NCBI GenBank assembly: GCA_019246375.1
Contig: JAFAQO010000028.1
Coordinates: 1-15,012 of the forward strand
Direction: 5' to 3'
Length of the DNA: 15,012 nt
From: Mycobacterium sp.
GTDB taxonomy: Bacteria > Actinomycetota > Actinomycetes > Mycobacteriales > Mycobacteriaceae
Position numbers and translations under genes: made by a program. Numbering within the stretch: position 1 is the stretch's first letter; each line of letters opens with the position of its first letter. A model generated the notes under the pieces. It saw nothing but the letters and a program-made list of their open reading frames with translations. It had not been told where the DNA came from and did not search any database. This document shows positions 1 to 15,012 of this stretch, one piece after another.

Positions 1-1891
1 CAGCATGCTGCGCGTCGAGGTCGGCCAGGGCGGCGTCAAACCAGGCCAACCCCTCCCGAAGGCGTCCCCGCGCTTGCCACAGCGGCTGCAACGACGACGC
101 CAGCGCCAGGGCCAGTTCGACGTCGGAGTTTTCGCGGCTCCACGAAAACGCGGCGCGCAGGTTGTTGATCTCGACGTCTGCCTGCTCGATGCGCTGCTCA
201 TAATCACCGCCTGCCGGGGCGTCGAGCAGGGCGGCCAACGCGGTGTAGTGGTCGCGGTGACGGGACCGGACCGTGTCGGCTTCGCCGGACTCCCCAAGTT
301 TCTCGAGCGCATACTGGCGCACAGTTTCGAGAAACCGGTATCGTGTTCGGCCCCACGTGTTTTCGGCGACAACTAATGATTTGTCCACCAGCAGGGTGAG
401 CTGATCGAGCACCTGGTAGCGCTCCAGCTCACCACCGCCGGCGACTGCTTGGGCAGCGTCGAGGTCGAAGCCGCCCGGAAAGACCGCCAGCCGGCGAAAC
501 AACATCCGCTCGGGCTCGGTCAACAGCGCATGCGACCAATCCACCGAGGCGCGCAGTGTCTGCTGACGGCGCACCGCGGTGCGCGCACCGCCGGTCAGCA
601 GCCGGAAGCGGTCATGCAAACTGTCGACGATCTCGGCCAGCGACAACGCCCGCACCCGCGCTGCCGCAAGCTCGATCCCCAGCGGCAACCCATCCAGGCG
701 CCGACAGATCTCCGCGACCGGCGCGGCATTGTCGTCGGTGAGGGCGAAATCTGGCCGCACATGGCGAGCCCGGTCGGTGAACAACTCGATCGCTTCATCG
801 GCCAGCGACAGCGACGGCACCCGCCAACTCACCTCACCGGGCACGCCAATCGGCTCACGGCTGGTCGCGAGCAACGTCAGCCTCGGCGCCGCACCGAGGA
901 GAGCGGCGACTACGGCCGCGCTCGCGTCGAGTAGGTGCTCGCAGTTGTCCAACACCACCAGCATCTGGCGGTCGGCGACAAAACGGACCAGCGTGTCCAT
1001 CGTGGAGCGGCCCGGTTGATCGGGTAGCTCCAGTGCGCGAGCCACCGCGATCGGCACAACGTCGGGATCGGTGATCGGTGCCAGATCCACGTACCACGCC
1101 GCGTCGACGAACTCGCCGGCCAGCAGGCTCGCGATCTGGACTGCCAGCCGCGTTTTACCTACCCCACCCGCGCCGGTCAGGGTCACCAGCCGGTTCTCGC
1201 CCAGCAGCTCCCGCAACTTGGTCAGCTCCGCTTCGCGTCCCACAAAACTGGTCAGCTGCACCGGAAGATGCTGGGAGAAAATGGCTGTGGATACGCGAAG
1301 CGGCGGGAACTCGTTGACCAGGTCGGGATGACACAGCTGCACAACGCGTTCAGGGCGGCGAATGCCCCGGAGGGGGTACGTGCCAAGATCGGTCAGCCAA
1401 GCGCCCTCGGGGAGGCGATCGGTGACCAACTCGTCGGTCACCCCCGACACTACAGTCTGGCCCCCGTGCGCCAGATCGCGCAGCCGTGCAGTTCGGTTAA
1501 TGGTCGGACCGGCGTAGTTACCTTCATCGCGCAACTGCGCCTCGCCGGTATGCACCCCGATGCGCACCCGGATCGGGGCCAACGGCGCTAACTGCAACTG
1601 CAACGCGGCCGCCACCGCATCGGAGGCACGGGCGAACGCGGCCACAAAACTGTCGCCCTCGCCCTGCTCCACCGGCCTTACACCGTCGTGGGCCGCGATG
1701 ACGTCGGACGCGACTCGGTTGAGGCGCGCAAGGGCAGCCGTCATCTTCGCGGGCTGGGTTTCCCACAGCCGCGTGGAGCCCTCGATGTCGGCCAAAAGCA
1801 GCGTCACCGTGCCAGTCGGCAAAAGCCCGCTCACGCCCAGCTCACTCCAGTCCACCAGCGGCGTGTCCGCGCGTGGGTCGATCTGGCTCAT
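1..1891 (-). CDS. Class III adenylate cyclase-ATPase regulator (Rv0386/Rv1358/Rv2488c type), 3' end beyond the window
   Basis: The frame is open for 630 codons from ATG 1891 to the left edge. Residues about 28-180 form a class III nucleotide cyclase domain with LLLADIEGST (metal Asp35), GEGDSF (metal Asp80), and Asn132/Arg136 as transition-state residues. The two positions that normally read the purine (Lys and Asp) are Gln76 and Asn125, as I recall for Rv0386. Residues about 215-450 are an NB-ARC/AAA-like ATPase with Walker A GAGGVGKT (240-247) and Walker B LVVLDNCEHL (311-320), followed by helical repeats. Family members end in a LuxR-type helix-turn-helix, which would lie outside this window. 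The likely role is a cytoplasmic ATP-dependent transcription regulator whose cyclase may be weak. The start is uncertain: in-frame ATGs at 1903 and 1927 are possible, and none has a clear Shine-Dalgarno sequence. The gene lies downstream of the esterase and could be read through from it. Confidence 0.9.
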   Translation of the reverse strand, partial: MSQIDPRADTPLVDWSELGVSGLLPTGTVTLLLADIEGSTRLWETQPAKMTAALARLNRVASDVIAAHDGVRPVEQGEGDSFVAAFARASDAVAAALQLQLAPLAPIRVRIGVHTGEAQLRDEGNYAGPTINRTARLRDLAHGGQTVVSGVTDELVTDRLPEGAWLTDLGTYPLRGIRRPERVVQLCHPDLVNEFPPLRVSTAIFSQHLPVQLTSFVGREAELTKLRELLGENRLVTLTGAGGVGKTRLAVQIASLLAGEFVDAAWYVDLAPITDPDVVPIAVARALELPDQPGRSTMDTLVRFVADRQMLVVLDNCEHLLDASAAVVAALLGAAPRLTLLATSREPIGVPGEVSWRVPSLSLADEAIELFTDRARHVRPDFALTDDNAAPVAEICRRLDGLPLGIELAAARVRALSLAEIVDSLHDRFRLLTGGARTAVRRQQTLRASVDWSHALLTEPERMLFRRLAVFPGGFDLDAAQAVAGGGELERYQVLDQLTLLVDKSLVVAENTWGRTRYRFLETVRQYALEKLGESGEADTVRSRHRDHYTALAALLDAPAGGDYEQRIEQADVEINNLRAAFSWSRENSDVELALALASSLQPLWQARGRLREGLAWFDAALADLDAQHA

Positions 1892-1904
1892 GCTAGCCAG
1901 CATG
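1889..1904. repeat. Inverted repeat over the cyclase start codons
   Basis: The sequence CATGCTAGCCAGCATG has 6-base arms (CATGCT/AGCATG) around a 4-base spacer. It covers both candidate start codons, at 1891 and 1903. It could be an operator, or an RNA hairpin that hides the start. It could also be chance, since the arms are short. Confidence 0.3.
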
Positions 1905-1969
1905 CGGCCACCGCGAGCCCTAAACATCAGCGAAAACGCGTAGAGCCAAGCCCCACACCGCGGATTTTT

Positions 1970-3259
1970 CTAACGCCTCCCCGATACCACCCTGCCTGTG
2001 ACCGACCGTCGCTGTTTGCCATAGGTTGCGCCGAACTGCGGCACCTCAAGAGGACCGGTGTGACGGGCGGCATCGATGGCATTGCGCAGCGGGCGTGCCA
2101 ATCCCGCGAACGACGCCATGTCGAACACCATCGGCGTCAACAGCCGGTTGTGCACGAAACCGAACCCGCTGGCAGACTGGGGATCGGCCCATCCGAGAGT
2201 TCCGCCCAGACCGAAATGGCCAAAGCCCTTGAGTAGCCCGGGAATTGGCGATTCATGATATCCGAGATGGAACGGCATCGGCACCATGATGTTCAGGTCG
2301 GGCAGCATCCTCGGCCTGCCCGTCAAGCCCTCCACTAACTCCGAGGACAGGAACTGTGTTCCGTCGATGCGGCCACCGTTGGCCAGCGCAGCGTACATCT
2401 TGGCCAGGCCGCGCCCGGTGACCACGCCGTTGGCCGCGGGAACCTCGCCGTCAAGGAAGGGAATGTCGCCCTGCACAAACGATTTGATACCAGGGAAGTA
2501 CATTGCGCCCAGGGCGCCCGAGAACGGTAGACCGGCCACCCTTGGTGCGACGAAATTGAACACCGGATTGGGCCGGTTGCTCTGCGGGGCCAGAATCTGC
2601 GCGACTTTCGTCGGCGCGTCGGCCGGAGGCCGGCCGAGATGCAATCCGTCCGTGTTGAGCGGACGAGCCACCTCGGTGCGGATCAGCTCGCGCATGCCCA
2701 GACCCGTAACCGATCGGGCCAGACCGGACAGCAGCCAACCGTAGGTCAGCGCGTGATACGCCGGGGCGCCCCGCAGGTGGTCGACCGGTGCAGCGGCCAG
2801 CCGCTCCTCCATCAGGCGGTGATCCATCAACTCGGTCTTGCTGACACCCTTCAGATGCGAGAGTCCGGACCGATGACGCAAGACGTCCTGGACGGTGATG
2901 TCGGACTTGCCGTTGGCCCCGAACTCCGGCCAATAGTCGGCAACTGGCGTGTCATAGCACAGCAGCCCCCGGTCGACCAGCCGGTGAATCACCGTGGATG
3001 CGACTCCCTTGGTCGCGGAGAACACCATCGCACCGGTGTCGGCCGTCCACGGCGCCTCTCCGGCCCGGTCTAACCATCCCGCCCAGACGTCGACGACGGG
3101 CCGTCCTTCGATGTAAACGGACAGGGCCCCGCCACCGAATCGGCGCCCGGGAAACAGCCCGGCGAACAACCGGATCGCGTTTTCGAAATGCGGATCGGCG
3201 GCACCGCGGACGCCGCGTGGCAAGCCGGCGCCGGCTTGGAGAAGAGACGCTTGAGTCAC
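1970..3259 (-). CDS. LipL-like serine hydrolase of the class C beta-lactamase/esterase family
   Basis: The 429-residue product is similar along its length to mycobacterial LipL (Rv1497, also about 429 residues as I recall). It carries the beta-lactamase-fold signature: Ser81-Ala-Thr-Lys84 (SxxK nucleophile and base), the Tyr168 region AYHALTYGW, and a GHFGLGGT stretch (347-354) in place of the KTG motif. In this family the enzymes are usually esterases on short-chain or lipid esters rather than beta-lactamases. No signal peptide is evident, so a cytoplasmic or envelope-associated location is open. The start is GTG 3259; an in-frame stop lies just upstream and no better codon exists between. 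There is no good ribosome-binding site at the usual distance. It sits after the hyp operon but has its own promoter-like region, so it is probably a separate unit. I do not assign lipL itself because mycobacteria have several paralogues. Confidence 0.9.
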   Translation of the reverse strand: MTQASLLQAGAGLPRGVRGAADPHFENAIRLFAGLFPGRRFGGGALSVYIEGRPVVDVWAGWLDRAGEAPWTADTGAMVFSATKGVASTVIHRLVDRGLLCYDTPVADYWPEFGANGKSDITVQDVLRHRSGLSHLKGVSKTELMDHRLMEERLAAAPVDHLRGAPAYHALTYGWLLSGLARSVTGLGMRELIRTEVARPLNTDGLHLGRPPADAPTKVAQILAPQSNRPNPVFNFVAPRVAGLPFSGALGAMYFPGIKSFVQGDIPFLDGEVPAANGVVTGRGLAKMYAALANGGRIDGTQFLSSELVEGLTGRPRMLPDLNIMVPMPFHLGYHESPIPGLLKGFGHFGLGGTLGWADPQSASGFGFVHNRLLTPMVFDMASFAGLARPLRNAIDAARHTGPLEVPQFGATYGKQRRSVTGRVVSGRR

Positions 3260-3323
3260 TGTGCTAGCGGCACAGCTCGCGGGAGAGCCGCCGCTCCTCG
3301 CGCCCCGATGCGATCATGAAATG

Positions 3324-3353
3324 ATGCTATTACTCGTAGCGAGTCCGGGGTAA
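3324..3353 (-). promoter_or_regulatory. Probable promoter and operator of the LipL-like gene
   Basis: On the minus strand a -10 of TANNNT type (TAGCAT, 3329-3324) lies 18 bases from a -35-like TTACCC (3353-3348). That would start transcription near 3317, leaving a leader of about 58 bases. Between the two boxes is the dyad ACTCG-TAG-CGAGT (3332-3344), a usual place for a repressor. A second dyad, ATCAT-GAA-ATGAT (3313-3325), overlaps the -10. The boxes are assigned by eye. Confidence 0.4.
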
Positions 3354-3420
3354 TGAACAACCACATTGATCAGTAGTGCAGATCGAACCGACCGAACAGC
3401 CACCAGCTAAAGAAACTCGT

Positions 3421-4173
3421 TTACGCCTGCGCGAGCCGCTGATTGGTCACCGCAAGCTGGCGGGGCGTGCTGTCCGCCAACGCTTGAATCTGCCCGGGGC
3501 TCAGCCGACCACACAGCCGGCCCCAGTGGATAGCGACGTCATCGCCGACCTCGACGTCGGGCACCGCACTGTACCCGTCGGCCCACACTTCAAGTCGGCG
3601 CGGCGACGGTTCGGACAGCTCCAGCGCGTGACTGTCCCAGATCAGCGTTCGGCAGGACACTTCGATATCATTGCCGTCGCGGGAAACCACTGTGCCCCAG
3701 GTGATTCGGCAGTTTTCCAGAACGCCCATCGGGTGCTCGTCCAGTCCGCGGCCCAGCAGCCGCGACCACGGATACACCCCTAAGACGTGAAAGCAGTGGT
3801 TAGCGGCGGCTTCGCAGACCAACTCCGGGCCGAGATGCGACCAGTAGCGGCCGGCCTGCGGGCCGATGATGGCGAGTAACTCGCCAACAAACTCGCCTGC
3901 GTCGAGATCGGCGCCGACACCACCGCCCAGCCAATACGACTCGACGAGCCGGTAATCGAGCGGGTCGGCGATTCCGGTCATCTTCGACAGCACCTGCAAG
4001 TAGGGCCAGGCACCGGTGAACTTCGTCGCCGCCACCCGCACGTCGTCCACCGTCCCGTCCCGCAACGTGGCGCCCAGTGGCGGACCACAGTAGCCCAGCG
4101 CATTCGGGGCATAGGCATACCGGGCGAACATCTCGGCCCCACGGGTGTCAACCGTCGGTGCTGCCACAGTCAC
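3421..4173 (-). CDS. Hydrogenase-cluster protein of the DUF6390 type, with a possible HypC-like C-terminal domain
   Basis: This is the last gene of the hyp operon, 250 residues from GTG 4173. The GTGA overlap with the hypD stop implies translational coupling; a longer frame to ATG 4245 would run 76 bases into hypD and is not needed. I recall such proteins as DUF6390, found beside actinobacterial hydrogenase genes, with no known function. Residues 1-145 are a conserved unknown region with ARYAYAPNALGYCGPP (17-32) and NHCFHVLGVYPW (125-136), rich in Cys and His that could bind metal. Residues about 153-235 resemble HypC in layout: a Cys-led strand (NCRITWGTVVS, Cys155) and, later, VGDDVAIHWGRLCGRLSP, which parallels HypC's EWVLVHVGFAMAKID. 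No signal peptide or membrane segment is seen. The gene is real; the HypC likeness is my inference. Confidence 0.85.
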   Translation of the reverse strand: MTVAAPTVDTRGAEMFARYAYAPNALGYCGPPLGATLRDGTVDDVRVAATKFTGAWPYLQVLSKMTGIADPLDYRLVESYWLGGGVGADLDAGEFVGELLAIIGPQAGRYWSHLGPELVCEAAANHCFHVLGVYPWSRLLGRGLDEHPMGVLENCRITWGTVVSRDGNDIEVSCRTLIWDSHALELSEPSPRRLEVWADGYSAVPDVEVGDDVAIHWGRLCGRLSPGQIQALADSTPRQLAVTNQRLAQA

Positions 4174-5306
4174 AACCGCCCGGAGGACCCGACCAGCTTG
4201 ACAGCGTCGCGGTGCATCCTGCCGAAGTTGTAGTAGGCCGCACACGCGCCCTCAGGGGAGACCATGCAGGTACCAATTGGCGTCTCGGGTGTACATGCTG
4301 TTCCGAAAACTTTGCATTCCCAAGGCTTGAGCACGCCCTTGAGCACCTCACCGCATTGGCAGGCCTTCGGGTCGGCGACCCGGACGCCGGGCATCGCATA
4401 GCGCAGCTCTGCGTCGAAGTCGGCGAAATCGTCGCTGAGCCGCAGTGCGCTTTGCGAGATGAAACCCAGCCCGCGCCACTCGAAGTGCGGACGAAGGGTG
4501 AAGACCCTGCCCATCAGCGCCAACGCCGCCGGGTTGCCGTGCTCGGGCACCACCCGCGAATACTGGTTCTCCACCTCGCAACGGCCCTCGCGGATCTGGC
4601 TCAGCAGCATCGCCACCGACGCCAAGATGTCCAGCGGCTCAAAACCGGAAACTACCAACGGTTTTCCGTATACCTCCGGCACGAACCGATACGGCCGATT
4701 GCCGACGACGGTCGAGACATGTCCGGGACCGATGAAACCCGACAGCCGCAAGTCCGGTGATTCCAGGATGGCCTTGATCGGCGGCACGATCGTGACATGG
4801 TTGCAGAACACGCTGAAGTTCTTCAGCCCCAGTTCTCGTGCCCGTACCAGCGTCACCGCGGTGGACGGCACGGTGGTCTCAAACCCGATGGCGAAGAACA
4901 CCACTTGCTTGTCCGGCTTGTCGGTGGCGATCTTCAGCGCGTCCAGCGGTGAGTACACGAACCGCACATCGGCGCCGCGGGCTTTGGCGTCGAGCAGGCT
5001 GCCGTTGGAACCGGGTACCCGCATCATGTCGCCGAAACAGGTGAAGATCACGTCGGGCTGCTCGGCCAGCCACATCGCATCGTCGATGCGACCCATCGGG
5101 ATGACACAGACCGGACAGCCCGGGCCGTGTACCAACTCGACATTCTCCGGCAGCAGATGTTCGATGCCGTGCCGGTAAATGGTGTGGGTGTGGCCTCCAC
5201 ACACTTCCATGAACTTGAAATGGTCGCTATCGCCGGCCAGTCGTTCGATCGCCCGGATCAGTTTGCGGGCGGCCGCCGGGTCACGGAACTCGTCAACGAA
5301 TTTCAT
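4170..5306 (-). CDS. hypD: Hydrogenase maturation factor HypD
   Basis: HypD is the iron-sulphur scaffold on which, with HypC, the Fe(CN)2CO group of [NiFe] hydrogenase is assembled in the cytoplasm. The 378-residue product has the usual length. It shows all family motifs: CGGHTHTIYRHG (36-47), GPGCPVC (61-67, Cys64 and Cys67), GFETTVPSTA (141-150), GPGHVS (193-198), and the C-terminal cysteine cluster at Cys316, 318, 331, 338, 347 and 355 that binds the [4Fe-4S] cluster. The start at ATG 5306 has GAAGGGA upstream at a suitable distance. It lies 18 bases after hypC and overlaps the DUF6390-like gene by four bases. No key residue is missing, so it should be active. Confidence 0.98.
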   Translation of the reverse strand: MKFVDEFRDPAAARKLIRAIERLAGDSDHFKFMEVCGGHTHTIYRHGIEHLLPENVELVHGPGCPVCVIPMGRIDDAMWLAEQPDVIFTCFGDMMRVPGSNGSLLDAKARGADVRFVYSPLDALKIATDKPDKQVVFFAIGFETTVPSTAVTLVRARELGLKNFSVFCNHVTIVPPIKAILESPDLRLSGFIGPGHVSTVVGNRPYRFVPEVYGKPLVVSGFEPLDILASVAMLLSQIREGRCEVENQYSRVVPEHGNPAALALMGRVFTLRPHFEWRGLGFISQSALRLSDDFADFDAELRYAMPGVRVADPKACQCGEVLKGVLKPWECKVFGTACTPETPIGTCMVSPEGACAAYYNFGRMHRDAVKLVGSSGRL

Positions 5307-5324
5307 AGTCTGTCCCTTCGCACG

Positions 5325-5597
5325 CTAAACGATGGCCGACGAATCGAACGCTTCCATTTCAGTGGTGTACGCGTCACCAAGCTTTTTCACGGCTGCGAGC
5401 GTCAGCAACGCTTCCTTCTCATCGATCTTGGCCATAGCAAAGCCGACGTGCACAAGTACCCACTCGTCCGGCTCGGGCATGTCGTCTTCCAGCAGCCGCA
5501 CCGAGATCGTGCGCTGTACCCCACTGACGTCGACCTTGGCCAAATAGTTCGCTGCGTCGGTGATTTCGACGATCCGCCCCGGAATCCCAAGACACAT
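5325..5597 (-). CDS. hypC: Hydrogenase maturation chaperone HypC
   Basis: HypC is a small chaperone that binds HypD and then the immature hydrogenase large subunit, carrying the iron centre through its N-terminal cysteine. I choose ATG 5597 rather than GTG 5606 because it gives the essential MCLGIPGRIVEI start, with Cys2 exposed after methionine removal. It also places the AAAGGGG ribosome-binding site about ten bases upstream, whereas the GTG would nearly touch it. The 90-residue product is normal for the family and keeps EWVLVHVGFAMAKIDEKEAL (45-64), the strand and helix that close the small beta-barrel. It sits 18 bases from both hypE and hypD. This is the only canonical HypC in the window; two other genes here carry HypC-like regions. 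Confidence 0.97.
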   Translation of the reverse strand: MCLGIPGRIVEITDAANYLAKVDVSGVQRTISVRLLEDDMPEPDEWVLVHVGFAMAKIDEKEALLTLAAVKKLGDAYTTEMEAFDSSAIV

Positions 5598-5615
5598 TTC
5601 AGTCACGCCCCTTTC

Positions 5616-6731
5616 TCAGCAGATCCGCGGCAGTGGATCGCCGACGAGCATGTCGACGATCCGGGTTCCGCCGAATCCGGTACGCACCACGACAGTCTCC
5701 GCTGGTTCAGCGAGTATTTCTCCAATTTCGGCCGCATCGGCGCCCAACGGATGCGAACGCAGCGCGGCAAGCCCGGCCTCAGCCTCCTCGGGTGCGACGA
5801 CGGCAATGAACTTGCCCTCGTTGGCAACATAGAGCGGGTCGATTCCGAGCAGCTCGCACGCCCCACTCACCATTGGACGCAGTGGCAGCCGGTCCTCCTC
5901 GAGCAGCACTCCCAGACCACAGGCCTGGGCGAGTTCGTTGCACACCGTGCCCACGCCGCCGCGGGTCGGGTCGCGCAACCACCGTGTGGACGGCGCGGCA
6001 GCCAGCAATGCTTCCACCAGCGGACTGACTGAAGCAGTGTCGGAACGGATATCGGCTTCGATCGCAAGGTCGCCACGGGCCAGCATCACTGCCATACCGT
6101 GATCCCCCATCGAGCCCGACAACAGTACCTTGTCGCCGGTACGCACCGACTCCGGTGACAGCCGCCGGCCCGCCGGAATGACACCGGCGCCCGTGGTGGT
6201 GATGAACAGCCCGTCTGCGGCGCCGTTGGGCACCACCTTGGTATCACCGGTAACGATCTGAACGCCGGTGGCCGCCGCTGCCGCCGCGATGTCGGCGACG
6301 ATCTCCTTCAACTCGGCGATCGAGAAGCCCTCCTCGAGAACAAAAGCCGCCGAAATCCACTGTGGCACAGCGCCTACCACCGCGAGGTCATTGGCTGTCC
6401 CATGCACCGCCAGTGTGCCGATCGAACCGCCGGGAAAACGCCTGGGCTGCACCACAAATGAATCGGTGGACATCGCGATCCGCTCACCGCTCGGCAGGCT
6501 GAGCACCGCACCGTCGCCGAGCGACTCGAGCAGCGGATTACGGAACGCCTCCATGAACACCGCATCGACCAGCGCCGCCGAGGCCTTTCCGCCGGCGCCG
6601 TGTGCCAGCGTCACGTGTTCGTCGAGCAACCGGGGCCGCCGTCTGCGGAACGACTCGATCCGCTCGATCACCTCGCCCTCGGCGAAACGCGGGCCCGACG
6701 AAAGGTATTCGCTCGACGACTTACGACTCAT
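5616..6731 (-). CDS. hypE: Hydrogenase maturation factor HypE
   Basis: HypE takes the carbamoyl group from HypF onto its C-terminal cysteine and uses ATP to dehydrate it to thiocyanate, the source of the cyanide ligands. The product is 371 residues from ATG 6731, whose first base is the last base of the SIS-gene stop (TGATG), so the two are coupled; AGAAGGG lies upstream. A longer frame to 6860 would run into the SIS gene and is rejected. The PurM/ThiL-like ATPase motifs are present: LAHGAGGKAS, LGDGAVL, STDSFVVQPRRFPGG, HGTANDLAVVGA and VTGDTKVV. The protein ends in the required Pro-Arg-Ile-Cys tail with Cys371 terminal. Residues 1-40 are a short extra basic segment before the conserved core. 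Confidence 0.97.
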   Translation of the reverse strand: MSRKSSSEYLSSGPRFAEGEVIERIESFRRRRPRLLDEHVTLAHGAGGKASAALVDAVFMEAFRNPLLESLGDGAVLSLPSGERIAMSTDSFVVQPRRFPGGSIGTLAVHGTANDLAVVGAVPQWISAAFVLEEGFSIAELKEIVADIAAAAAATGVQIVTGDTKVVPNGAADGLFITTTGAGVIPAGRRLSPESVRTGDKVLLSGSMGDHGMAVMLARGDLAIEADIRSDTASVSPLVEALLAAAPSTRWLRDPTRGGVGTVCNELAQACGLGVLLEEDRLPLRPMVSGACELLGIDPLYVANEGKFIAVVAPEEAEAGLAALRSHPLGADAAEIGEILAEPAETVVVRTGFGGTRIVDMLVGDPLPRIC

Positions 6732-7405
6732 CAAACCGGCGACCCTTCTTTTCCGGCATGTTGCCCGTCTCGCTGGTGGACCGCCAGCCACAGCTCGTAG
6801 CCCAGCAGCGCTTGAGATTCCTGAATCCGGTGCACGCTTTGCGAACGCACGACGAAGCACACATCGACGTCCGGGGTTTTGGCGAATGCGCCGCCGTCGT
6901 ATCCGGCGAAGCCGATCGTGTACATGCCGCGGTGACGCGCCTCGCGCAACGCCGCCATCAGATTCGGCGAACTGCCGCTCGTCGACATCGCGATCGCGAT
7001 GTCCCCCGGCTTCGCTCGGGCGATCAACTGCCGGGAGAAAACCAGCTCGAATCCGACGTCATTGCCCAGCGCGGTCAGAATCGCCTGATCGGCGGTCAAC
7101 GACCAAGCAGGCAGCGGCTTTCCGATCGGCGGACGGGCGAACAACCTCGCCAGGGTTGTCGAATCGGTGCAGCTGCCGCCGTTGCCGAATGTGAACAGCC
7201 GTCCGCCTGCGGCGAACCGGCGTGCCATCTCGGTGGCGGCGGTGGCCACCAGTTCGGCGTTGGCCTCCAGCGTGGACCGGCGCAACGCCAGACTTTCGGC
7301 CGCCTTCGCCTGCGCCGACGCGGTGAGGTCAGCCAGCAGCGACTTGGGGTCGTCCTCCTGCGCGTCGATGAACGGGTACAAGAAGTTGGTCGGCTCCTCA
7401 CTCAT
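6731..7405 (-). CDS. GmhA-like SIS-domain protein of the hydrogenase operon
   Basis: The 224-residue product is one SIS (sugar isomerase) domain of the phosphoheptose isomerase/DiaA type. It has the phosphate-binding loops FGNGGS (73-78) and STSGSS (141-146), GNDVGFELVFSRQ (114-126), and a late RIQESQ (193-198). By my remembered alignment with E. coli GmhA, the metal or catalytic positions His61, Glu65 and His180 are not kept: after GNGGS the sequence reads CTDSTTLARLF, and RIQE is followed by Ser-Gln rather than Ile-His. It can probably bind a phosphosugar or similar ligand but is unlikely to make heptose, which mycobacteria do not need for LPS. I chose ATG 7405 because AAAGGGGG lies five bases upstream; a frame to 7429 exists. 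It is coupled to hypE by a one-base overlap. Its role in hydrogenase maturation is unknown, and I do not call it gmhA. Confidence 0.92.
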   Translation of the reverse strand: MSEEPTNFLYPFIDAQEDDPKSLLADLTASAQAKAAESLALRRSTLEANAELVATAATEMARRFAAGGRLFTFGNGGSCTDSTTLARLFARPPIGKPLPAWSLTADQAILTALGNDVGFELVFSRQLIARAKPGDIAIAMSTSGSSPNLMAALREARHRGMYTIGFAGYDGGAFAKTPDVDVCFVVRSQSVHRIQESQALLGYELWLAVHQRDGQHAGKEGSPV

Positions 7406-7441
7406 CGGACCCCCTTTGGTTGTCCTCATCCTCGCCGCGGC

Positions 7442-8200
7442 TCATGTGCGCCGCTCCTCAATCCCGGCCTCGCCGGGATCTTCGTCGTCGACGCGGCTGA
7501 TCGCTGTTCCCGCGTGCACGAGCACCAACTCGCCCGCGGCTACCGGGTCGACCAGCGTGGTCGCGACGTCTTCGATGCCCTTCGCGGTGCGCACCGTTGC
7601 CAGGCCTTCCGCCGACGGCCCTATCACCTCGCCCAGGCGGCCTTCGTCGCTGCAGGTGACGCAGACTTCGTCGGCGGACTGGTCGGCTGCTTTCAGCAGG
7701 CCGGGATGCTCGAAGCAGACATGGGTCAGTTCCCACAGCAGGTGATAAAACAGCACGAAGCCGCCGGTCGCCGGCACCCGCGGATCCGGGTCGTCCAGCC
7801 ACAGCACGTGATCGGCCATACCGGCCCCGGGCCGCTCACCGCTGCCGATCCAGACCGTGGTGACGCCCCACGCCGGGCTTCGGCGCATCACCGACCGCAC
7901 CTCGGGATTGTCGGCGGCCGAGACGCCGACCACGATGTCGCCGGGACGGACCGACACTCGCACCACGTCCACCAGGTTAGGTCCGGTCAGCGCAACCGCC
8001 GGCAACGCGCGCTTCCCCACGATCACCGGATGCACGAATTCGACCGCAATGTGCAGTGCATGCGGCTCCCACGCCGGCGCGATGGACCACATGGTGGCGC
8101 CCGCCGCGAACCGTTTGGCCAGTGTGAGCGCGGTGGCAGCCAAGTCGCCGGCCAGGTCAGCGCTTACCCCTCGGTCGATTGCAGTGGTAGTCATCGTCAC
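7442..8200 (-). CDS. Degenerate SIS domain fused to a HypC-like domain
   Basis: The 252-residue product has two parts. Residues about 15-160 follow the SIS protein encoded next: AKRFAAGATMWSIA against ARRFAAGGRLFTFG, VGKRALPAVALT against IGKPLPAWSLT, and PGDIVVGVSA against PGDIAIAMST. The GNGGS and STSG phosphate loops are lost, so it is probably a non-catalytic SIS fold. Residues about 179-241 look like HypC, with a Cys-led strand (VCVTCSDEGRLGEVIG, Cys180 and Cys183) and ELVLVHAGTAISRVDDE (224-240), matching HypC's EWVLVHVGFAMAKIDEK. The active cysteine of HypC is normally residue 2; here it is internal. The start is GTG 8200, seven bases after AGAGGGG; ATG 8194 is an alternative. Long frames to 8263 overlap hypF. 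It probably acts with HypD, HypC or the large subunit, perhaps joined to its SIS neighbour. Confidence 0.88.
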   Translation of the reverse strand: MTMTTTAIDRGVSADLAGDLAATALTLAKRFAAGATMWSIAPAWEPHALHIAVEFVHPVIVGKRALPAVALTGPNLVDVVRVSVRPGDIVVGVSAADNPEVRSVMRRSPAWGVTTVWIGSGERPGAGMADHVLWLDDPDPRVPATGGFVLFYHLLWELTHVCFEHPGLLKAADQSADEVCVTCSDEGRLGEVIGPSAEGLATVRTAKGIEDVATTLVDPVAAGELVLVHAGTAISRVDDEDPGEAGIEERRT

Positions 8201-8246
8201 CGCACCACCCCTCTTTCCCCGAACACCTTGCGCCGCCGAGAATTCC

Positions 8247-10607
8247 TCAAATACATGGGCCAAGCCTCCGCGAATCGAGCGCGGTCAACACCGAGATCGC
8301 CGCCTGCCCGAGTGCGAGCCCACCGTCGTTGGGCGGGACGGTGTGATGGGTCAAGACGTCGAATCCCTTTTGCTGCAGATATTTTCGGCATGCCTGCAGC
8401 AGCAGCACGTTTTGGAACACCCCGCCGGTGAGACCCACCAAGCGCACCGCGCCGGCGACCAGACTCACTGTCTCGGCGACGGCGACCGCGACCGCTTCGT
8501 GGAACGCGGCCGCCAGCGTTGCCGGCTCGACTCCCGCGCGCAGAGCCGAGACGATCGTCCGCATCATCCCGGTCGGGTCGATCACTCCGTCGGCGCGTAC
8601 GTGCATGCGCAACTTCGGCGCCGACGCGCCGGCCGAGTCAGCCAGCACCTCGAGTTCGATGGCGGCTTGGCCCTCGTAATCGATCCGATGACGCACGCCC
8701 AGTAACGAGGCAACCGCGTCGAACAGCCGGCCCATGCTCGAACAGGGCACACAGCCAACATTGCTCTGCAATTGCGATCGGATGACGCGTATTTCGGCGG
8801 GCGGGGCCGCAGTGACGGGTGGCAGATCCGCCATCCATTCGATGCCCGCGGTCCACAGCTGAGACAGCGCCATCCGCCACGGATTGCGCACTGCGGCATC
8901 ACCGCCCGGCAGCGGCACCGGCAGCAGGTGGCCGACCCGGACAAAGCGGTGACTGTCGCGCCCGACTGCGAGGATCTCGCCACCCCAAATCGTGCCGTCG
9001 CAACCGTAGCCGGTGCCGTCGAAGGAGACTCCGATGATCGGCTCACCGAGCCGGCCGTGCTCGGCCAGCAGCGACGCGACGTGCGCGTGGTGATGCTGAA
9101 CGAGGTCCAACGGGCGATCGCCGACGTGGCGCTCCGCCCAACTACGGGTCAGATATCCGGGATGCAAGTCAGCGGCCAACCGCACCGGCTGGTGCCGGAT
9201 TTCGCTGAGCTGGCCGACCGCACGCTCGAACGCCTGCAGCGTCGCCAAGGTGGCCATGTCGCCGATATGGCCGGACATGAAAGCGCGTGAGCCGTCGGTG
9301 AGACAAAACGTGTTTTTCAGCTCGCCGCCCACGGCCAGCACGGCGGGGCCGTCGCGGCCGATGTCGACCGGCAGCGGCGCATACCCGCGGGATCGGCGGA
9401 TCGGCAGTTCCCAGTCGTCGACAACGCGCACGACCGAGTCGTCACACGGCACGTGAATCGGCCGGTTGTGGTCGAGCACGGCGTCGCATAAAGCGGCCGA
9501 AGGCCGCAAAAGTCTCTGTTTAGCATCACCTTCGGTGTAGCAGATGGGTTCGTCGGAACGGTTGGCGCTGGTCAGCACCAGTGCATCGGGCACCACGGCG
9601 TCAGCACCGGGCACAGGGGCGAGCAGCAGGTGATGGATCGGCGAGTAGGGCAGCATCAGCCCGAGCAGCGGGCTGCCGGGCGCGACGGCATCGGCGACCG
9701 GTGCGTCCGCGCGTCGCCGCAGCAATACGATCGGCCGGGCCGGACTCGACAACACCGCTGCCTCGGTGTCGTCTATGTGGGCATAGCGACGGGCGACATC
9801 GAGATCACGGACCAGCATGGCGAATGGCTTGGCACCGCGCGCTTTGCGGGCACGCAATCGGCCGACCGCGTCCTCGCTGTCGACGACGCACGCCAGGTGG
9901 TAGCCACCGATGCCCTTGATCGCGACAACGGCTCCGGTCGCCAGCGCCTGCTGGGTGGCGGCCAGCGCGGCATCTGACCCGTCGACCCACTCGGCTTCGC
10001 GCCGGAACCACAGCGATGGCCCGCAGTCGGGGCACGCGATCGGCTGCGCATGGAATCGGCGGTTGGCCGGGTCGTGGTATTCAGCAGCGCAACGCTCACA
10101 CATGGCAAATATCGACATCGTGGTGGCCGGCCGGTCGTAGGGCAACGCACGGATGATCGTGAAGCGCGGTCCGCAGTTGGTGCAGGTCACGAACGGGTGC
10201 CGGTAGCGGCGATCGACGGGATCGAACAATTCGGCGACACAGTCGTCGCAGACCGCGATGTCGGGCGGGATCGGCGTCGTCGCGCCGGCGACTGTCTGGC
10301 TTTCCACGATGCGGAAATCGGTCCCGGCTGTGGTGTCGGCCTCGATGTCGACGACGGCTACCGCGCTGATCCGCGCCAGCGGCGGGGCTTCGGCCTGCAG
10401 TCGGCGACCGAATTCGTCCACCTGCTCGCGCGGTCCCTGAACCTCGACGAACACCGCGCCGGAATCGTTGCCGACGAATCCGGCAAGCCGCAGGCCGCTG
10501 GCGAGGCGATGGACGAACGGACGAAAGCCAACCCCCTGCACGACCCCCGTCACGATGAACCGCTGCCGAATATCGTCGGATCGCAGCATCAGCGGCGTGT
10601 CGGTCAT
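8247..10607 (-). CDS. hypF: Carbamoyltransferase HypF
   Basis: HypF turns carbamoyl phosphate and ATP into a carbamoyl group passed to HypE, the first step of cyanide-ligand synthesis. All four domains are present in 786 residues. They are an acylphosphatase domain (about 15-101, [17 protein letters not shown]), two zinc fingers (Cys120/123/142/145 and Cys170/173/192/195), a YrdC-like domain (about 212-400, [18 protein letters not shown] and KPFAMLVRD), and a Kae1-like domain (about 420-775) with [15 protein letters not shown] (504-518), [16 protein letters not shown] (529-544) and [12 protein letters not shown] (725-736). The length is slightly above the usual 750. I prefer ATG 10607; TTG 10619 is in frame and adds four residues. 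It is the first gene of the maturation operon, 46 bases before the SIS-HypC fusion and about 266 bases after gatB. Confidence 0.97.
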
Positions 10608-10707
10608 GGCAACCGCCAAACGACCGTGAGCACCGGGCAGCCGGGCGGCTCAACCTCCTTGCCGCACCACCTAGTCCACCACTCAGCACACGTCGCGATC
10701 ACACCGT

Positions 10708-10750
10708 TTCGTCAGTCACGAACTTACGCCCCGGCCCTCTTCCGATCCTA
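10708..10750 (-). promoter_or_regulatory. Possible hyp operon promoter region
   Basis: Two TANNNT -10 candidates face hypF: TAGGAT (10750-10745) and TAAGTT (10726-10721). The second overlaps a dyad, TTCGT-CAGTC-ACGAA (10708-10722). No convincing -35 accompanies either. A promoter is expected in this gap because hypF opens the operon, but which box is used cannot be settled by eye. Confidence 0.25.
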
Positions 10751-10811
10751 GGCGTCCGCAGAAGGCGCGGTGCAGAATTCGACACCCGGGTACCAATCGG
10801 CCGAAAATGCG

Positions 10812-10834
10812 TTCCTGCTAACCGTTCGCAGGAA
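10812..10834 (-). terminator. Long dyad downstream of gatB, terminator or operator
   Basis: TTCCTGC and GCAGGAA arms pair perfectly around a 9-base centre that itself reads AAC-C-GTT, so 10 of 11 positions per arm are symmetric about 10823. On the minus strand it begins about 40 bases after the gatB stop and is followed within four bases by a short TTTT. This fits a weak factor-independent terminator. The near-perfect symmetry would equally suit a protein-binding site for the hyp promoter region. Confidence 0.45.
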
Positions 10835-10873
10835 AGCTCATGTCGAGTTACCGGCGACTCCCTGCAGTCTCGG

Positions 10874-12394
10874 CTAGCTTTGGCCACACGCGGCGAGCAC
10901 GAGTTCGCGTACCCGCGCCGCGTCGGCCTGCCCGCGCGTAGCCTTCATGACTGCGCCGACGATCGCGCCGGCCGCCTGTACTTTGCCACCGCGAATCTTC
11001 TCCGCGACATCGGGATTGGCGGCCAGGGCTTCGTCGACTGCCGCCTGGATCAACGAGTCGTCGCGCACCAACGCCAGGCCTCGCGCGGTCATCACCTGCT
11101 CGGGCTCACCTTCGCCGGCCAGCACACCCTCGACGACTTGGCGGGCGAGCTTGTTGGACAGCTTGCTCTCGTCCACCAGCGCCTGGACAGCGGCGACTTG
11201 GGCCGGCGTGATAGCCAGCTCGTCGAGTGCGACACCGGCTTCATTGGCCTTTTGGACTAGGAAGTTGCCCCACCAAGCACGCGCGTGCTCGCTGGACGCG
11301 CCCTGCGCTACGGTCGCGATCACAAGCTCGACGGCGCCGGCATTGACCAGATCGCGCATCACCTGGTCGGAAACACCCCACTCCTGCTGAATTTGCTTGC
11401 GACGCAACCACGGTAGTTCGGGGATGGTCTGGCGAAGTCGCTCGACGAGCTCGGCACTGGGTGCGACGGGTTCCAAGTCGGGCTCGGGAAAATAGCGGTA
11501 GTCCTCGGCGGTCTCCTTGGTGCGGCCGGGGCTGGTGTACCCAGCCTCGTGGAAGTGGCGGGTTTCCTGCGTGATCCGGCCGCCTGATGCCAGAACGGCG
11601 GCCTGGCGCTGCATCTCGTATCGGACCGCGACTTCGACGCTCTTGAGTGAGTTGACGTTTTTGGTTTCGGTGCGGATACCGAACATGGTGGCGCCGAGCG
11701 GCTTCAGCGACACGTTGGCGTCACAGCGCATCGAGCCCTGGTCCATCCGTACGTCGGAAACACCCAGCGCGCGCAATAGATCTCGTAGCGCTGTCACGTA
11801 GGCCCGGGCGATCTGCGGCGCCCGGGCCCCCGTTCCCACGATGGGCTTGGTGACGATCTCAATCAGCGGCACGCCGGAACGGTTGTAGTCGATAAGCGAT
11901 GTCGTCGCGCCGTGGATGCGGCCGGTTTCGCTGCCGATGTGGGTCAGCTTGCCGGTGTCTTCCTCCATGTGCGCGCGCTCGATCTCGACGCGCCAGCTGG
12001 TCCCGTCTTCCAGCGGCACATCCAGGTAGCCGTTGATTGCGATCGGCTCGTCGTATTGCGAGATCTGGTAGTTCTTGGGCATGTCCGGATAGAAGTAGTT
12101 CTTCCGGGCGAAGCGGCACCACGGCACGATCTCACAGTTGAGCGCCAGCCCGATCCGGATCGCCGACTCCACCGCAGCCTCGTTGAGCACTGGCAGTGAA
12201 CCGGGCAGGCCGAGGCACACCGGGCACACCTGGGTATTGGGTTCGGCACCGAACCTCGTGGCGCAGCCACAGAACATCTTGGTGACGGTGGACAGCTCGA
12301 CATGCACCTCGAGGCCAAGCACCGGGTCATAACGTGCGACGACCTCGTCATAGTCGAGCAGCTCAGTCTCAGATGCCCTGGCAGCAACGGTCAT
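10874..12394 (-). CDS. gatB: Aspartyl/glutamyl-tRNA(Asn/Gln) amidotransferase subunit B
   Basis: GatB is the kinase and tRNA-binding subunit of GatCAB, which amidates Asp-tRNA(Asn) or Glu-tRNA(Gln) and is essential in mycobacteria. The 506-residue product is full length and close to M. tuberculosis Rv3009c as I recall it. Visible motifs include [23 protein letters not shown] residues with Cys76 and Cys79 in [47 protein letters not shown] and RTETKNVNS. The C-terminal GatB/Yqey tail ends in AACGQS. It starts at ATG 12394 with no Shine-Dalgarno sequence but with a TANNNT box seven bases before the start, so it may be leaderless. In M. tuberculosis pfkA lies directly upstream of gatB; here three other genes separate them. 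Confidence 0.98.
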
Positions 12395-12401
12395 GGATTA
12401 G

Positions 12402-12407
12402 AGCTTA
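12402..12407 (-). promoter_or_regulatory. Leaderless -10 box for gatB
   Basis: TAAGCT lies exactly seven bases before the gatB ATG and no ribosome-binding site is present. In mycobacteria this spacing would put the transcription start on the A of the start codon. It sits in the 19-base gap after the PAS-ANTAR gene, so gatB could be expressed both alone and by read-through. Confidence 0.45.
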
Positions 12408-12413
12408 ATTGCG

Positions 12414-13115
12414 TCAACCGGATCCGGTCGCCGGCCCGTCGTGTGCGCCGGCAGCTCGCCTGTGCGCTTTCAGCAGCAACTGGTCAAACAATGCTCGCGA
12501 TGCGATGGCGTGCCGGCTGACGGCGCAGAAGTCCTCAGCGATCTGCTCGACAAGCAGCCGCAGCTTGATGTTGCTTTCTTGGGATAGCCCCTTGATGAGG
12601 TTGAACGCAGCAACCTCGTCGATGCCGTACACCAGCATCAGCATGCCCTTGACCTGGTCAATCTTGCCGCGCCGTTCGGCGATTTCGGCGACCTTCACAG
12701 TGATGATGTCCTGTTGCGCACTCTCGGACGTCGGTGTGACGTCGACGTAGAAGCCGTGTGTGCCGATGACGACACCGTTGTCGTCACGCAGTTGATCGCC
12801 AACCACGACTACCTCGTGCACTTCGCCGCCGGTGTCGAGGATGCGGTGCCGTGTGCGGAAGGGCCGGTGTGTCGTAATCATCTCCTCGATGGTCGCCGCC
12901 ACCTGGCCGCGATCGTCGGGATGCTTGTGTGACAGCACCAGGTCAGTGGTCGGCGTCACCGTTCCGGGCTGGTAGCCGTGCATGCGCTGCACCTGCTCCG
13001 ACCATTCCCAGCGCTGGTCCGTGAAATAGAACCGGAACGATCCCACGCGCTGCGGCGCGCCGCCGGCGAGGGCCTCCTCGGTCTGGGGTGTCTGACCATC
13101 TAGCTGGCCAGTCAT
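12414..13115 (-). CDS. PAS-ANTAR regulator
   Basis: The 233-residue product has a PAS domain (about 26-127) with the PAS_3-like FTDQRWEWSEQVQRMHGYQPG and a HPDDR motif (65-69). It is followed by an ANTAR domain (about 140-196, IAERRGKIDQVKGMLMLVYG onward to LVEQIAEDF). ANTAR domains bind paired hairpins in nascent RNA and prevent termination; the PAS domain would sense a ligand, redox state or light, but its cofactor cannot be read from sequence. The start is ATG 13115, inside an ATGA overlap with the zinc-protein stop, so the two are translationally coupled. Longer frames to 13259 only overlap that gene. The protein lacks a receiver or histidine-kinase domain, so sensing and output are in one chain. 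The RNA targets are unknown. Confidence 0.92.
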   Translation of the reverse strand: MTGQLDGQTPQTEEALAGGAPQRVGSFRFYFTDQRWEWSEQVQRMHGYQPGTVTPTTDLVLSHKHPDDRGQVAATIEEMITTHRPFRTRHRILDTGGEVHEVVVVGDQLRDDNGVVIGTHGFYVDVTPTSESAQQDIITVKVAEIAERRGKIDQVKGMLMLVYGIDEVAAFNLIKGLSQESNIKLRLLVEQIAEDFCAVSRHAIASRALFDQLLLKAHRRAAGAHDGPATGSG

Positions 13116-13453
13116 GGCGCGCGCTCGGTGGCAGTGTCGGACGTGGCCGACTCGATTTGCTCCAGAGGCGGTGTCGTGGCCACTCGAATCGAGTACTTCT
13201 GGATGATTTCTTGCTGGGCAGCGGCAGCTTGTTCGAGGTGGTCTGCCGCCGCGCGGCATAGTGCGCGCGCTCGGTCAAGTGCCTGTTGTGCCCGTTGGGC
13301 AGAGCCGGCAACGGTCGGCTTGATACGGCGTGCCAGGCGAGCTCGGTGTGCTTTCTGTCGGCATGCCGGTGAGCAGTACATTGCATCAGACCGGGCATAG
13401 AAGCCATTGCCGCAGATGAAGCAGGTCAGGTCAGCGGCGACCACGGCCGTCAC
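13112..13453 (-). CDS. Small four-cysteine zinc-binding protein
   Basis: The 113-residue product begins with a compact zinc site, Cys11-x2-Cys14 and Cys27-x3-Cys31 (CFICGNGFYARSDAMYC, then SPACRQKAHRAR). A basic stretch follows, then a long Ala/Gln/Arg-rich helix (about 50-90), probably a coiled coil. Similar short domains occur in mycobacterial putative DNA- or RNA-binding proteins with the pattern YCSPACRQKAHRAR. I do not recognise a specific function. The start is GTG 13453; no strong ribosome-binding site precedes it, and a perfect 16-base palindrome lies ten bases upstream. The stop overlaps the ATG of the PAS-ANTAR gene by ATGA. The pair probably work together, with this protein as partner or adaptor, though that is inference. 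Confidence 0.82.
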   Translation of the reverse strand: MTAVVAADLTCFICGNGFYARSDAMYCSPACRQKAHRARLARRIKPTVAGSAQRAQQALDRARALCRAAADHLEQAAAAQQEIIQKYSIRVATTPPLEQIESATSDTATERAP

Positions 13454-13463
13454 GTTACCGCTA

Positions 13464-13479
13464 TCCGTTACGTAACGGA
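13464..13479. promoter_or_regulatory. Perfect 16-base palindrome, probable operator
   Basis: TCCGTTACGTAACGGA is fully self-complementary with no spacer. It lies in the 30-base gap between the ATPase stop (13484) and the zinc-protein start (13453). A third GTTAC half site sits at 13454-13458, one base before the start codon, 13 bases from the matching half site. This arrangement suits a dimeric repressor controlling the zinc protein and PAS-ANTAR pair. Confidence 0.5.
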
Positions 13480-13483
13480 AGTT

Positions 13484-14692
13484 TTAACCTACTGGCTGAT
13501 TCGCTTTAGCTCTGTCGTGTGCCGTACTCCGGCTGGGAAACATGTCGGCCAGCGCGGCGGCCAGCTCGAGGTACTGCCGCCTGCTCTTTTTGCTCAACCG
13601 TTCGAGGGAAATTTCTTTGCCTGCGTGCACATGCGGGTCGAACGGCAAAACCACTACACGGTTGGCCTTAAATTGCCCGGATAGCTTCTCGAGCTCCATG
13701 CTGAGCAGGGCATTGGGTTTGCCACTCTCGATGTGGTTTATCGCTAAGACCGTCGACTCGACCAGCTTCTGGTATCCGTTCTGACGCAGCCACTCCAGCG
13801 TGGTTCGCGTCTTCCTGACCGAATCGATTGACGCGCTGGTGACTATCACGAGCGCCCGCGACTCCCGCAGAATCGCTTCGATCAGACGCGACTTCAGCGC
13901 CGTCCCGCAATCCATCAACACCACTGAGTAGTGCTTTCGGAGAAGTGAAAACGCTCTGACAAAGTCGTCACGCTCGATGAGCCACTTGCTCTGCGCATAG
14001 TCAGGAATACCCAGCACTTCCAGCTTCGAGCCGTTCATGTAGGTGTGCGCCCGAACATCCGCATATCGCGTGACCGAGCGGTCCGCGAGCAGGTCGACCA
14101 TGGTCAGTGAATTTCGACGGCCGTGCCGGTCCGCGAGGTCTCCGGTGTCGAGGTCGACCGCGACCACCCGGTCGTTGCGCGCGTCGGCGAAGGTTGAGCC
14201 GAGCACCTCGACCACGGCGGTTTTGCCCACGCCTCCCTTGAGGTTGAGGACCGCGATCGGAAACGCGCTCCCGACCGATACTTCCACGCGACCTTTCAGT
14301 TCGAGCTCATATTTTTGAGCCTTGTTCGGACCCAGATTGATACCGGTTATGCGTGAGAAGAATTGTCGCCAATTGAACTTGGGTGGAACGGTCGTCTGCG
14401 ATTCGTCGTCAAGGCTGTCGAGCGCCACCCCGCCGGGCAGCCGCTGCGGCTTCACCGGCGGGGGCGGCGGCGCGCGGTGTGCCGGAACAGTCGACGTCAG
14501 GGAAGTGGTGGTCGGCCGCGCCGGCCTGGGCTGCTGCTGGTATGCGGGAGGGACCGGACGATAGGGCCGCCGCTCGATGTAAGGATCGGGGCCGTGGTCA
14601 CCACGCCGGACCGGTGAAGTCCGCTGCTCCTGCGGCGCCGTCCTAGGCACTGACTGCCGGTTTACGCCGCGATCAGGACCGCGGTTATCCAT
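13484..14692 (-). CDS. EspI-type MinD/ParA-like ATPase with proline-rich N-terminus
   Basis: The 402-residue product has a disordered N-terminus (1-105) rich in Pro, Arg and Gln, including APPPPPVKPQ (74-83). It then has WRQFFSRITGINLGP (108-122), a linker I associate with the ESX-linked EspI/Rv3888c/Rv3860 group. The deviant Walker A ATPase follows: LNLKGGVGKT (149-158, with Lys152 as signature lysine), VVAVDLDTGDLADRHG (176-191), and VVLMDCGTA (257-265). In ESX loci such ATPases regulate type VII secretion according to ATP level; others position or partition macromolecules. No ESX genes are visible here, so its partner is unknown. The start is ATG 14692, without a Shine-Dalgarno sequence but with a well-placed -10, so it is probably leaderless. 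It ends 30 bases before the zinc-protein gene and may be the first gene of that unit. Confidence 0.92.
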   Translation of the reverse strand: MDNRGPDRGVNRQSVPRTAPQEQRTSPVRRGDHGPDPYIERRPYRPVPPAYQQQPRPARPTTTSLTSTVPAHRAPPPPPVKPQRLPGGVALDSLDDESQTTVPPKFNWRQFFSRITGINLGPNKAQKYELELKGRVEVSVGSAFPIAVLNLKGGVGKTAVVEVLGSTFADARNDRVVAVDLDTGDLADRHGRRNSLTMVDLLADRSVTRYADVRAHTYMNGSKLEVLGIPDYAQSKWLIERDDFVRAFSLLRKHYSVVLMDCGTALKSRLIEAILRESRALVIVTSASIDSVRKTRTTLEWLRQNGYQKLVESTVLAINHIESGKPNALLSMELEKLSGQFKANRVVVLPFDPHVHAGKEISLERLSKKSRRQYLELAAALADMFPSRSTAHDRAKANQPVG

Positions 14693-14699
14693 ATTTTCG

Positions 14700-14727
14700 A
14701 CCGTAACACCGGTTCGGATCGCCCGAA
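14700..14727 (-). promoter_or_regulatory. Leaderless promoter with operator-like dyad for the EspI-type ATPase
   Basis: TACGGT (14705-14700) lies exactly seven bases before ATG 14692, the spacing expected for leaderless transcription. Upstream is a dyad, TTCGG-ATCGC-CCGAA (14713-14727), that would lie about where the -35 and spacer fall. No ribosome-binding site is seen before the ATG. Confidence 0.45.
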
Positions 14728-14806
14728 AAGTTCACGAGAGCCGAGGTTGGTGAAGTTTATGTAGCGGTCCAGTGAACACGACGCTGCGGTAAACGGCGGG
14801 CGAGCA

Positions 14807-15012
14807 CTAGCCGAAAAAGGCCGCGGCGTCGTCGTAGCGGCTCGGCGGCACCAGCTTGAGCTGGCGCACCGCATCGCCCAGCGGCACCCGGCCGATGTCC
14901 TGGCCACGCAGCGACACCATCATCCCGTACTCACCGGTGTGCGCGGCGTCGGCGGCGTTCACCCCGAATCGGGTGGCCAGCACTCGGTCGTAAGAGGTCG
15001 GCGTACCACCGC
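14807..15012 (-). CDS. pfkA: ATP-dependent 6-phosphofructokinase, C-terminal part
   Basis: Sixty-eight codons and the TAG stop are in the window; the rest lies beyond the right edge. The fragment begins GGTPTSYDRVLATRFG and ends LKLVPPSRYDDAAAFFG, with GEYGMMVSLRGQDIG between. This matches the end of mycobacterial PfkA (Rv3010c type), the glycolytic enzyme that phosphorylates fructose 6-phosphate; the GGxPTxxDR segment belongs to the substrate-site half of the fold. It is followed by a 114-base gap carrying the promoter of the EspI-type gene. Confidence 0.93.
   Translation of the reverse strand, partial: GGTPTSYDRVLATRFGVNAADAAHTGEYGMMVSLRGQDIGRVPLGDAVRQLKLVPPSRYDDAAAFFG

Follow-up and report, generated by a model that had tools for sequence, protein, structure and literature searches.

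Why should a single hydrogenase maturation operon encode three HypC-like modules, two of them fused to other domains? The question is raised by a 15,012-nucleotide stretch of Mycobacterium sp. DNA (assembly GCA_019246375.1, contig JAFAQO010000028.1, positions 1 to 15,012; hereafter the window), whose minus strand carries a mycobacterial hyp operon in the order hypF, SIS-HypC, SIS, hypE, hypC, hypD and DUF6390, with successive intergenic gaps of 46, 12, −1, 18, 18 and −4 nucleotides. A sequence-only reading of the window had proposed that the proteins encoded by hypC, by SIS-HypC (a fusion with a sugar-isomerase-like SIS domain) and by the DUF6390 gene all contain a HypC-type module. Here we confirm this, by match to the HypC family PF01455 for SIS-HypC and by predicted fold and profile comparison for DUF6390; the motifs on which the proposal was built lie where it placed them.

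The DUF6390 protein (3421..4173, minus strand, 250 residues; its start codon overlaps the hypD stop by 4 nucleotides) reaches 347.3 bits against PF19927 (DUF6390), for a gathering score of 25. Its AF2 model (pLDDT 89.1) comprises a helical N-domain (residues 1-150; 3724..4173), in which Cys29, His126 and His129 are invariant in the alignment, and a C-terminal HypC-fold domain (residues 155-246; 3436..3711), in which Cys155, His216 and Cys221 are invariant among 90 aligned sequences. Checked for the absence of a HypC-type barrel, the model instead contains one, complete with C-terminal helix. The top structural match by Z in the PDB is HypC itself (2z1c_B; Z 8.9, root mean squared deviation 2.5, 74/74 residues), with Cys155 superposed on HypC Cys2, and the order-specific profile score against HypC is higher than that of all 400 shuffles, with His aligned on His. 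What had been put forward as the weakest of the likenesses is thereby borne out. The Foldseek E value is above 0.001, PF01455 (HypC/HupF) gives no match at E<=10 and hence none at its gathering score, a sequence-based PDB search returned nothing relevant, and direct comparison of the DUF6390 C-domain with the SIS-HypC module gave background likeness. Because the HypC sequence thresholds are missed, we describe this domain as HypC-like in fold, a likeness that looks real on the model, and not as a member of PF01455. That it is a generic OB-type barrel, of neither HypC ancestry nor HypC function, is highly improbable in view of the first rank of HypC by Z at full coverage, the coincidence of cysteine with cysteine and histidine with histidine, the failure of any of the 400 shuffles to reach the profile score, and the operon linkage. 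The N-domain profile was compared with 15 families, among them three large-subunit sets, HoxV, HypD, HypE and HypF, and scored at background (21.5 or less) throughout; hhalign comparison with HoxV (2 sequences) and the three large-subunit sets gave 15.1-17.5, also background level.

The second fused module, at the C-terminal end of SIS-HypC (7442..8200, minus strand, 252 residues; module residues 179-241, 7478..7666), scores 33.3 bits against PF01455 (gathering score 28.5) and 29.9 bits against TIGR00074 (cut-off 48), and its Cys180, Cys183 and His229 are invariant in 47 aligned sequences. Both fused modules have the strand-1 cysteine and the VxVH-strand histidine of HypC, which the canonical HypC of the operon (5325..5597, minus strand; PF01455 87.1 bits, TIGR00074 81.2 bits) carries as Cys2 and His50. 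They share with HypC and HybG (PF01455) the barrel fold, the first-strand cysteine, a histidine near position 50 and a place in a hydrogenase operon, and differ in being fused to another domain, in the internal position of the cysteine, which in HypC becomes N-terminal after Met removal, and, for DUF6390, in scoring under the HypC sequence thresholds and in a Cys-to-His distance of 61 positions compared with 48 in the HypC of the window. Cys2 and the His at about position 50 are the residues of demonstrated importance in HypC and HybG (PMC9002611, PMC8692609), the His aiding HypD binding and guarding client choice (PMC9002611). HybG carries Fe(CN)2CO, and the apo large subunit is bound by HybG only, not by HypD (PMC8692609). 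CO2-related adducts have also been observed on HybG; the lack of a free N-terminal cysteine in the fused modules argues against such adducts on them.

The rest of SIS-HypC (residues 1-170; 7691..8200) is a degenerate SIS domain of the GmhA type, with no Pfam SIS match at E<=10, in which His50, Glu54 and His153 are retained and the phosphosugar loop is gone. The adjoining SIS protein (6731..7429, minus strand) is GmhA-like (PF13580 60.7 bits, cut-off 27) and retains an SGSS loop and RIQE, without HxxxE. GmhA, the sedoheptulose-7-phosphate isomerase, has four zinc ligands, H64, E68, Q175 and H183 (PMC5705639). Aligned through the C. necator SIS protein, SIS-HypC keeps three of these and SIS one; unlike in GmhA, the set is divided over two proteins, neither of which has all four, and the SIS protein falls under the GmhA equivalog cut-off (TIGR00441, 105.7 bits against 209.45). 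The group-1h (actinobacterial-type) cluster of C. necator (L159) similarly has, in its existing annotation, a GmhA-like SIS gene, between hypC and hypD, but as a single protein with all four ligands, whereas in the window there are two copies that have diverged, one of which carries a fused HypC module. In another genome (G197, L144:14393-16183) one open frame of 596 codons holds both SIS domains, and the HypC with a CxTC motif is a separate small gene. SIS/GmhA proteins have been associated with HypD and HypE in another organism, without explanation (PMC3231954). Our literature search on SIS domain, HypC and hydrogenase found only a listing, at the Pfam level, of the SIS family among [NiFe]-hydrogenase gene neighbours (PMC12727194). 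A microarray table headed Oxygen Limitation places the gmhA-annotated MSMEG_2706 of M. smegmatis beside hypD, hypC, hypE and hypF (PMC5445863), which fits joint expression.

How general is this arrangement? Among close relatives, represented by the best 80 of 579 confirmed loci, hypD lies within 300 nucleotides upstream of DUF6390 in 73, and where more than 9 kb of upstream sequence was available (70 loci), SIS-HypC is present in 63 and two or more HypC genes in 60. The conservation does not extend further: of 20 stretches beyond the close relatives, 2 have HypD immediately before DUF6390 and 4 have HypC next to it, so that the position of DUF6390 is variable. At the edge of two group-1h clusters (L085 and L097), DUF6390 is divergent from hypA and does not follow hypD. 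A survey of 396 Actinomycetota genomes, 210 of them HypC-bearing at E<=0.001, found DUF6390 in 25, of which 24 have HypC at that threshold (P = 3e-6); the remaining carrier (G320) has a sub-threshold HypC-like gene (18.3 bits) in the operon that it shares with DUF6390. These co-occurrence tests, here and below, count related genomes as independent, with no correction for phylogeny. In 24 of the 25 carriers a hydrogenase large subunit exceeds the cut-off, and the large-subunit genes near DUF6390 belong to group 1h, to group 3b and to a third type that is group-1/2-like. One carrier (G150, L028) has what looks like a truncated copy, with 41/244 DUF6390 positions matched after an intact hypD.

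The sequence-only reading had taken the three modules to form a multi-part HypCD scaffold, in which HypC, SIS-HypC and DUF6390 would each pair with HypD, for different clients or ligand steps. All three are encoded in the hypD operon, hypD directly precedes DUF6390 in those 73 of 80 close-relative loci, and the histidine by which HypC is aided in binding HypD is retained in both fusions (PMC9002611). As a general role, however, the scaffold is not supported, because no HypD was found in 8 of the 25 DUF6390 carriers, and outside the close relatives the two genes seldom adjoin; we consider it unlikely.

A link with hydrogenase made in air, suggested by the same reading, receives correlative support. 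The aerobic terminal oxidase COX1 occurs in 207 of the 396 genomes and in 24 of the 25 DUF6390 carriers; among the 210 HypC-bearing genomes, DUF6390 is present in 23 of 79 with the oxidase and in 1 of 131 without it (P = 3e-10). It could be imagined that DUF6390, the SIS proteins or both replace HypX, a formyl-transferase and enoyl-CoA hydratase-like protein, as the source of the carbon monoxide (CO) ligand in air. Full-length HypX occurs in 8 of the 396 genomes and in just 1 of the 25 carriers (G086), although the oxidase is in 24 of them; the genome of the window (G000; 736 contigs, 81% complete) gave no full-length match, and the source of CO without HypX is described as an open question (PMC12134894). 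Yet 51 of the 79 genomes with HypC and oxidase have neither DUF6390 nor HypX, so a swap of one for the other is not shown, and their mutual exclusion is not significant (P = 0.31). A Pfam scan of these proteins listed no formyl-transfer or decarbonylase domain. We know of no CO-supplying chemistry of this kind for SIS domains, and regard such a supply as quite improbable. Two genomes of the window's family (G050 and G235) have a full-length HypX and no HypC was found in them; a literature search for HypX with actinobacteria and HypC found nothing.

HypD was sought in 92 of the 396 genomes, namely the 25 DUF6390 carriers, 56 genomes with HypC and oxidase but without DUF6390, and 11 HypC-bearing genomes with neither oxidase nor DUF6390; a further 119 HypC-bearing, oxidase-lacking genomes lay outside the search. 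It is present in 17 carriers and was not found in eight (G320, G025, G134, G157, G177, G008, G269 and G304), compared with 2 of the 56 (G042 and G349; Fisher P = 9e-4; G129, on a 50-position fragment, is scored as having it) and 1 of the 11 (G371). HypE and HypF gave weak partial matches below cut-off in the five of the eight that were tested (G320, G025, G134, G157 and G177), and all three proteins are present in five control genomes. Each of the five (L147, L148, L149, L151 and L154) has a group-3b-type operon with genes for an iron-sulphur subunit, a cNMP-binding protein, a flavin subunit, small and large subunits and a protease; an EamA transporter gene directly precedes DUF6390 in all five, the two being divergent from the rest in G177, and all contain a HypC-like gene, over the Pfam cut-off in four and below it in G320. 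The large subunit of G320 matches the sulfhydrogenase 1 alpha subunit of Pyrococcus furiosus over residues 7-424 of 430, with cysteine motifs and EAPRG kept. Two of the HypC-like proteins (L147:8451-8693 and L151:2052-2294) keep the MC start and have lost the conserved His (GDWVLASAG and GDWVLTSLG).

These operons suggest a further reading, in which DUF6390 and its HypC-like partner would themselves be the scaffold in genomes without HypD, HypE and HypF. For it speak the below-cut-off scores of HypE and HypF in the same five genomes, the recurrence of protease, EamA, DUF6390 and HypC-like gene in all five operons, and the intact large-subunit motifs of G320. Against it, the HypD-lacking carriers are draft genomes of 92-100% estimated completeness, and the genes around the hydrogenase operons include none recognisable as serving cyanide or CO synthesis. 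Assembly loss can moreover occur, since HypD was likewise not found in G304, whose large subunit is classical and group-1-like (748 bits), or in G008 (L145), which is rated 100% complete and has a full group-1h cluster with HypA, HypB, HypC and DUF6390; some 99 kb of sequence surrounding that cluster showed no hypF, hypD or hypE. A single clade of HypD-lacking DUF6390 is ruled out: a tree of 21 sequences, which leaves out G096, G150, G393 and the HypD-lacking G269, forces at least four changes, and the HypD-lacking state is therefore scattered. A literature search for hydrogenases without HypD, HypE and HypF found no case, as judged from the titles and abstract openings of part of the results. 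That DUF6390 and its partner form the scaffold themselves appears improbable; slightly less so is the broader statement that they mature [NiFe]-hydrogenases independently of HypD, and of HypE and HypF as well in Actinomycetota that have group 3b only.

The explanation that we favour, with about even confidence, takes DUF6390 for a carrier or holdase of HypC type, built of two domains and acting at the large subunit, and SIS-HypC and SIS for the parts of one platform. HypC, HypD, HypE and HypF would be joined by two further HypC-type modules, each at its own station, with canonical HypC serving the HypCD scaffold. In DUF6390 a helical N-domain that may shield client or cofactor would be followed by the HypC barrel, with Cys155 and His216 predicted to occupy the positions of Cys2 and His50/51 in HypC. 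Its most probable place of action is the large-subunit side, where, up to the nickel and protease steps, it would either hold the Fe(CN)2CO fragment or shield the apo large subunit from O2 and keep it open. Such a role is the best fit to a protein that joins a HypC barrel to a helical domain, accompanies hydrogenase even in the 8 of 25 carriers without a found HypD, and occurs mostly in oxidase-bearing genomes. SIS-HypC and SIS may be the diverged halves of one GmhA-like ancestor, joined in a composite site to which SIS-HypC would contribute three of the four metal ligands and SIS the sugar-phosphate loop and the fourth; the CxxC-type HypC module would receive from this platform either bound metal or a phosphorylated small ligand.

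The nearest family to these modules is HypC, and the nearest functional parallel to DUF6390 is rhizobial HupF and HupK, to which we would liken its role. HupF binds HupL and HupK, and its extra domain matters at higher O2 (PMC3534401); together with HoxL and HoxV, HupF and HupK provide Pseudomonadota that make hydrogenase in air with extra HypC-type factors (PMC3534401, PMC12134894). HupF is HypC with a C-terminal extension, whereas the added domain of DUF6390 is N-terminal and predicted to be helical, and its profile scores against HoxV and large subunits are at background level. Our search found no paper on DUF6390, and we did not find in print its HypC fold, the split SIS site or its HypD-lacking carriers.

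Family scans (Pfam and NCBIfam) confirm the other operon members, all on the minus strand: the carbamoyltransferase hypF (8247..10619; TIGR00143 738.4 bits, cut-off 466.1), hypE (5616..6731; TIGR02124 412.1 bits, cut-off 251.6), hypC, and hypD (4170..5306; TIGR00075 497.3 bits, cut-off 192.8). Upstream of hypF lies an open reading frame that by eye is gatB-like (10874-12394). Many relatives have a second hypC before hypF; in the genome of the window a second canonical HypC is instead on another contig (C418), adjoining a hydrogenase-protease-like gene. The operon seems internally deleted in Mycobacterium bohemicum (L090; hypF and SIS match in part, SIS-HypC not at all) and partly duplicated in Mycobacterium interjectum (L041; repeated partial hypF and SIS-HypC matches). 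A contig labelled as a Rhodospirillaceae metagenome-assembled genome (L088) contains a mycobacterial operon, with DUF6390 73% identical, and is probably mis-binned.

Collectively, these results offer a likely role for the unnamed family DUF6390 and bear on the SIS/GmhA proteins found near HypD and HypE. They provide two candidates for the building of an O2-sensitive metal group in aerobic Actinomycetota without HypX. Genomes with a hydrogenase operon and DUF6390 but no found HypD, HypE or HypF allow a direct test of the assumption that HypA-F are needed for every [NiFe]-hydrogenase; if maturation without these proteins were true, it would mean that the cyanide and carbonyl ligands of the iron are made by another route, or that the iron of such a hydrogenase lacks them.

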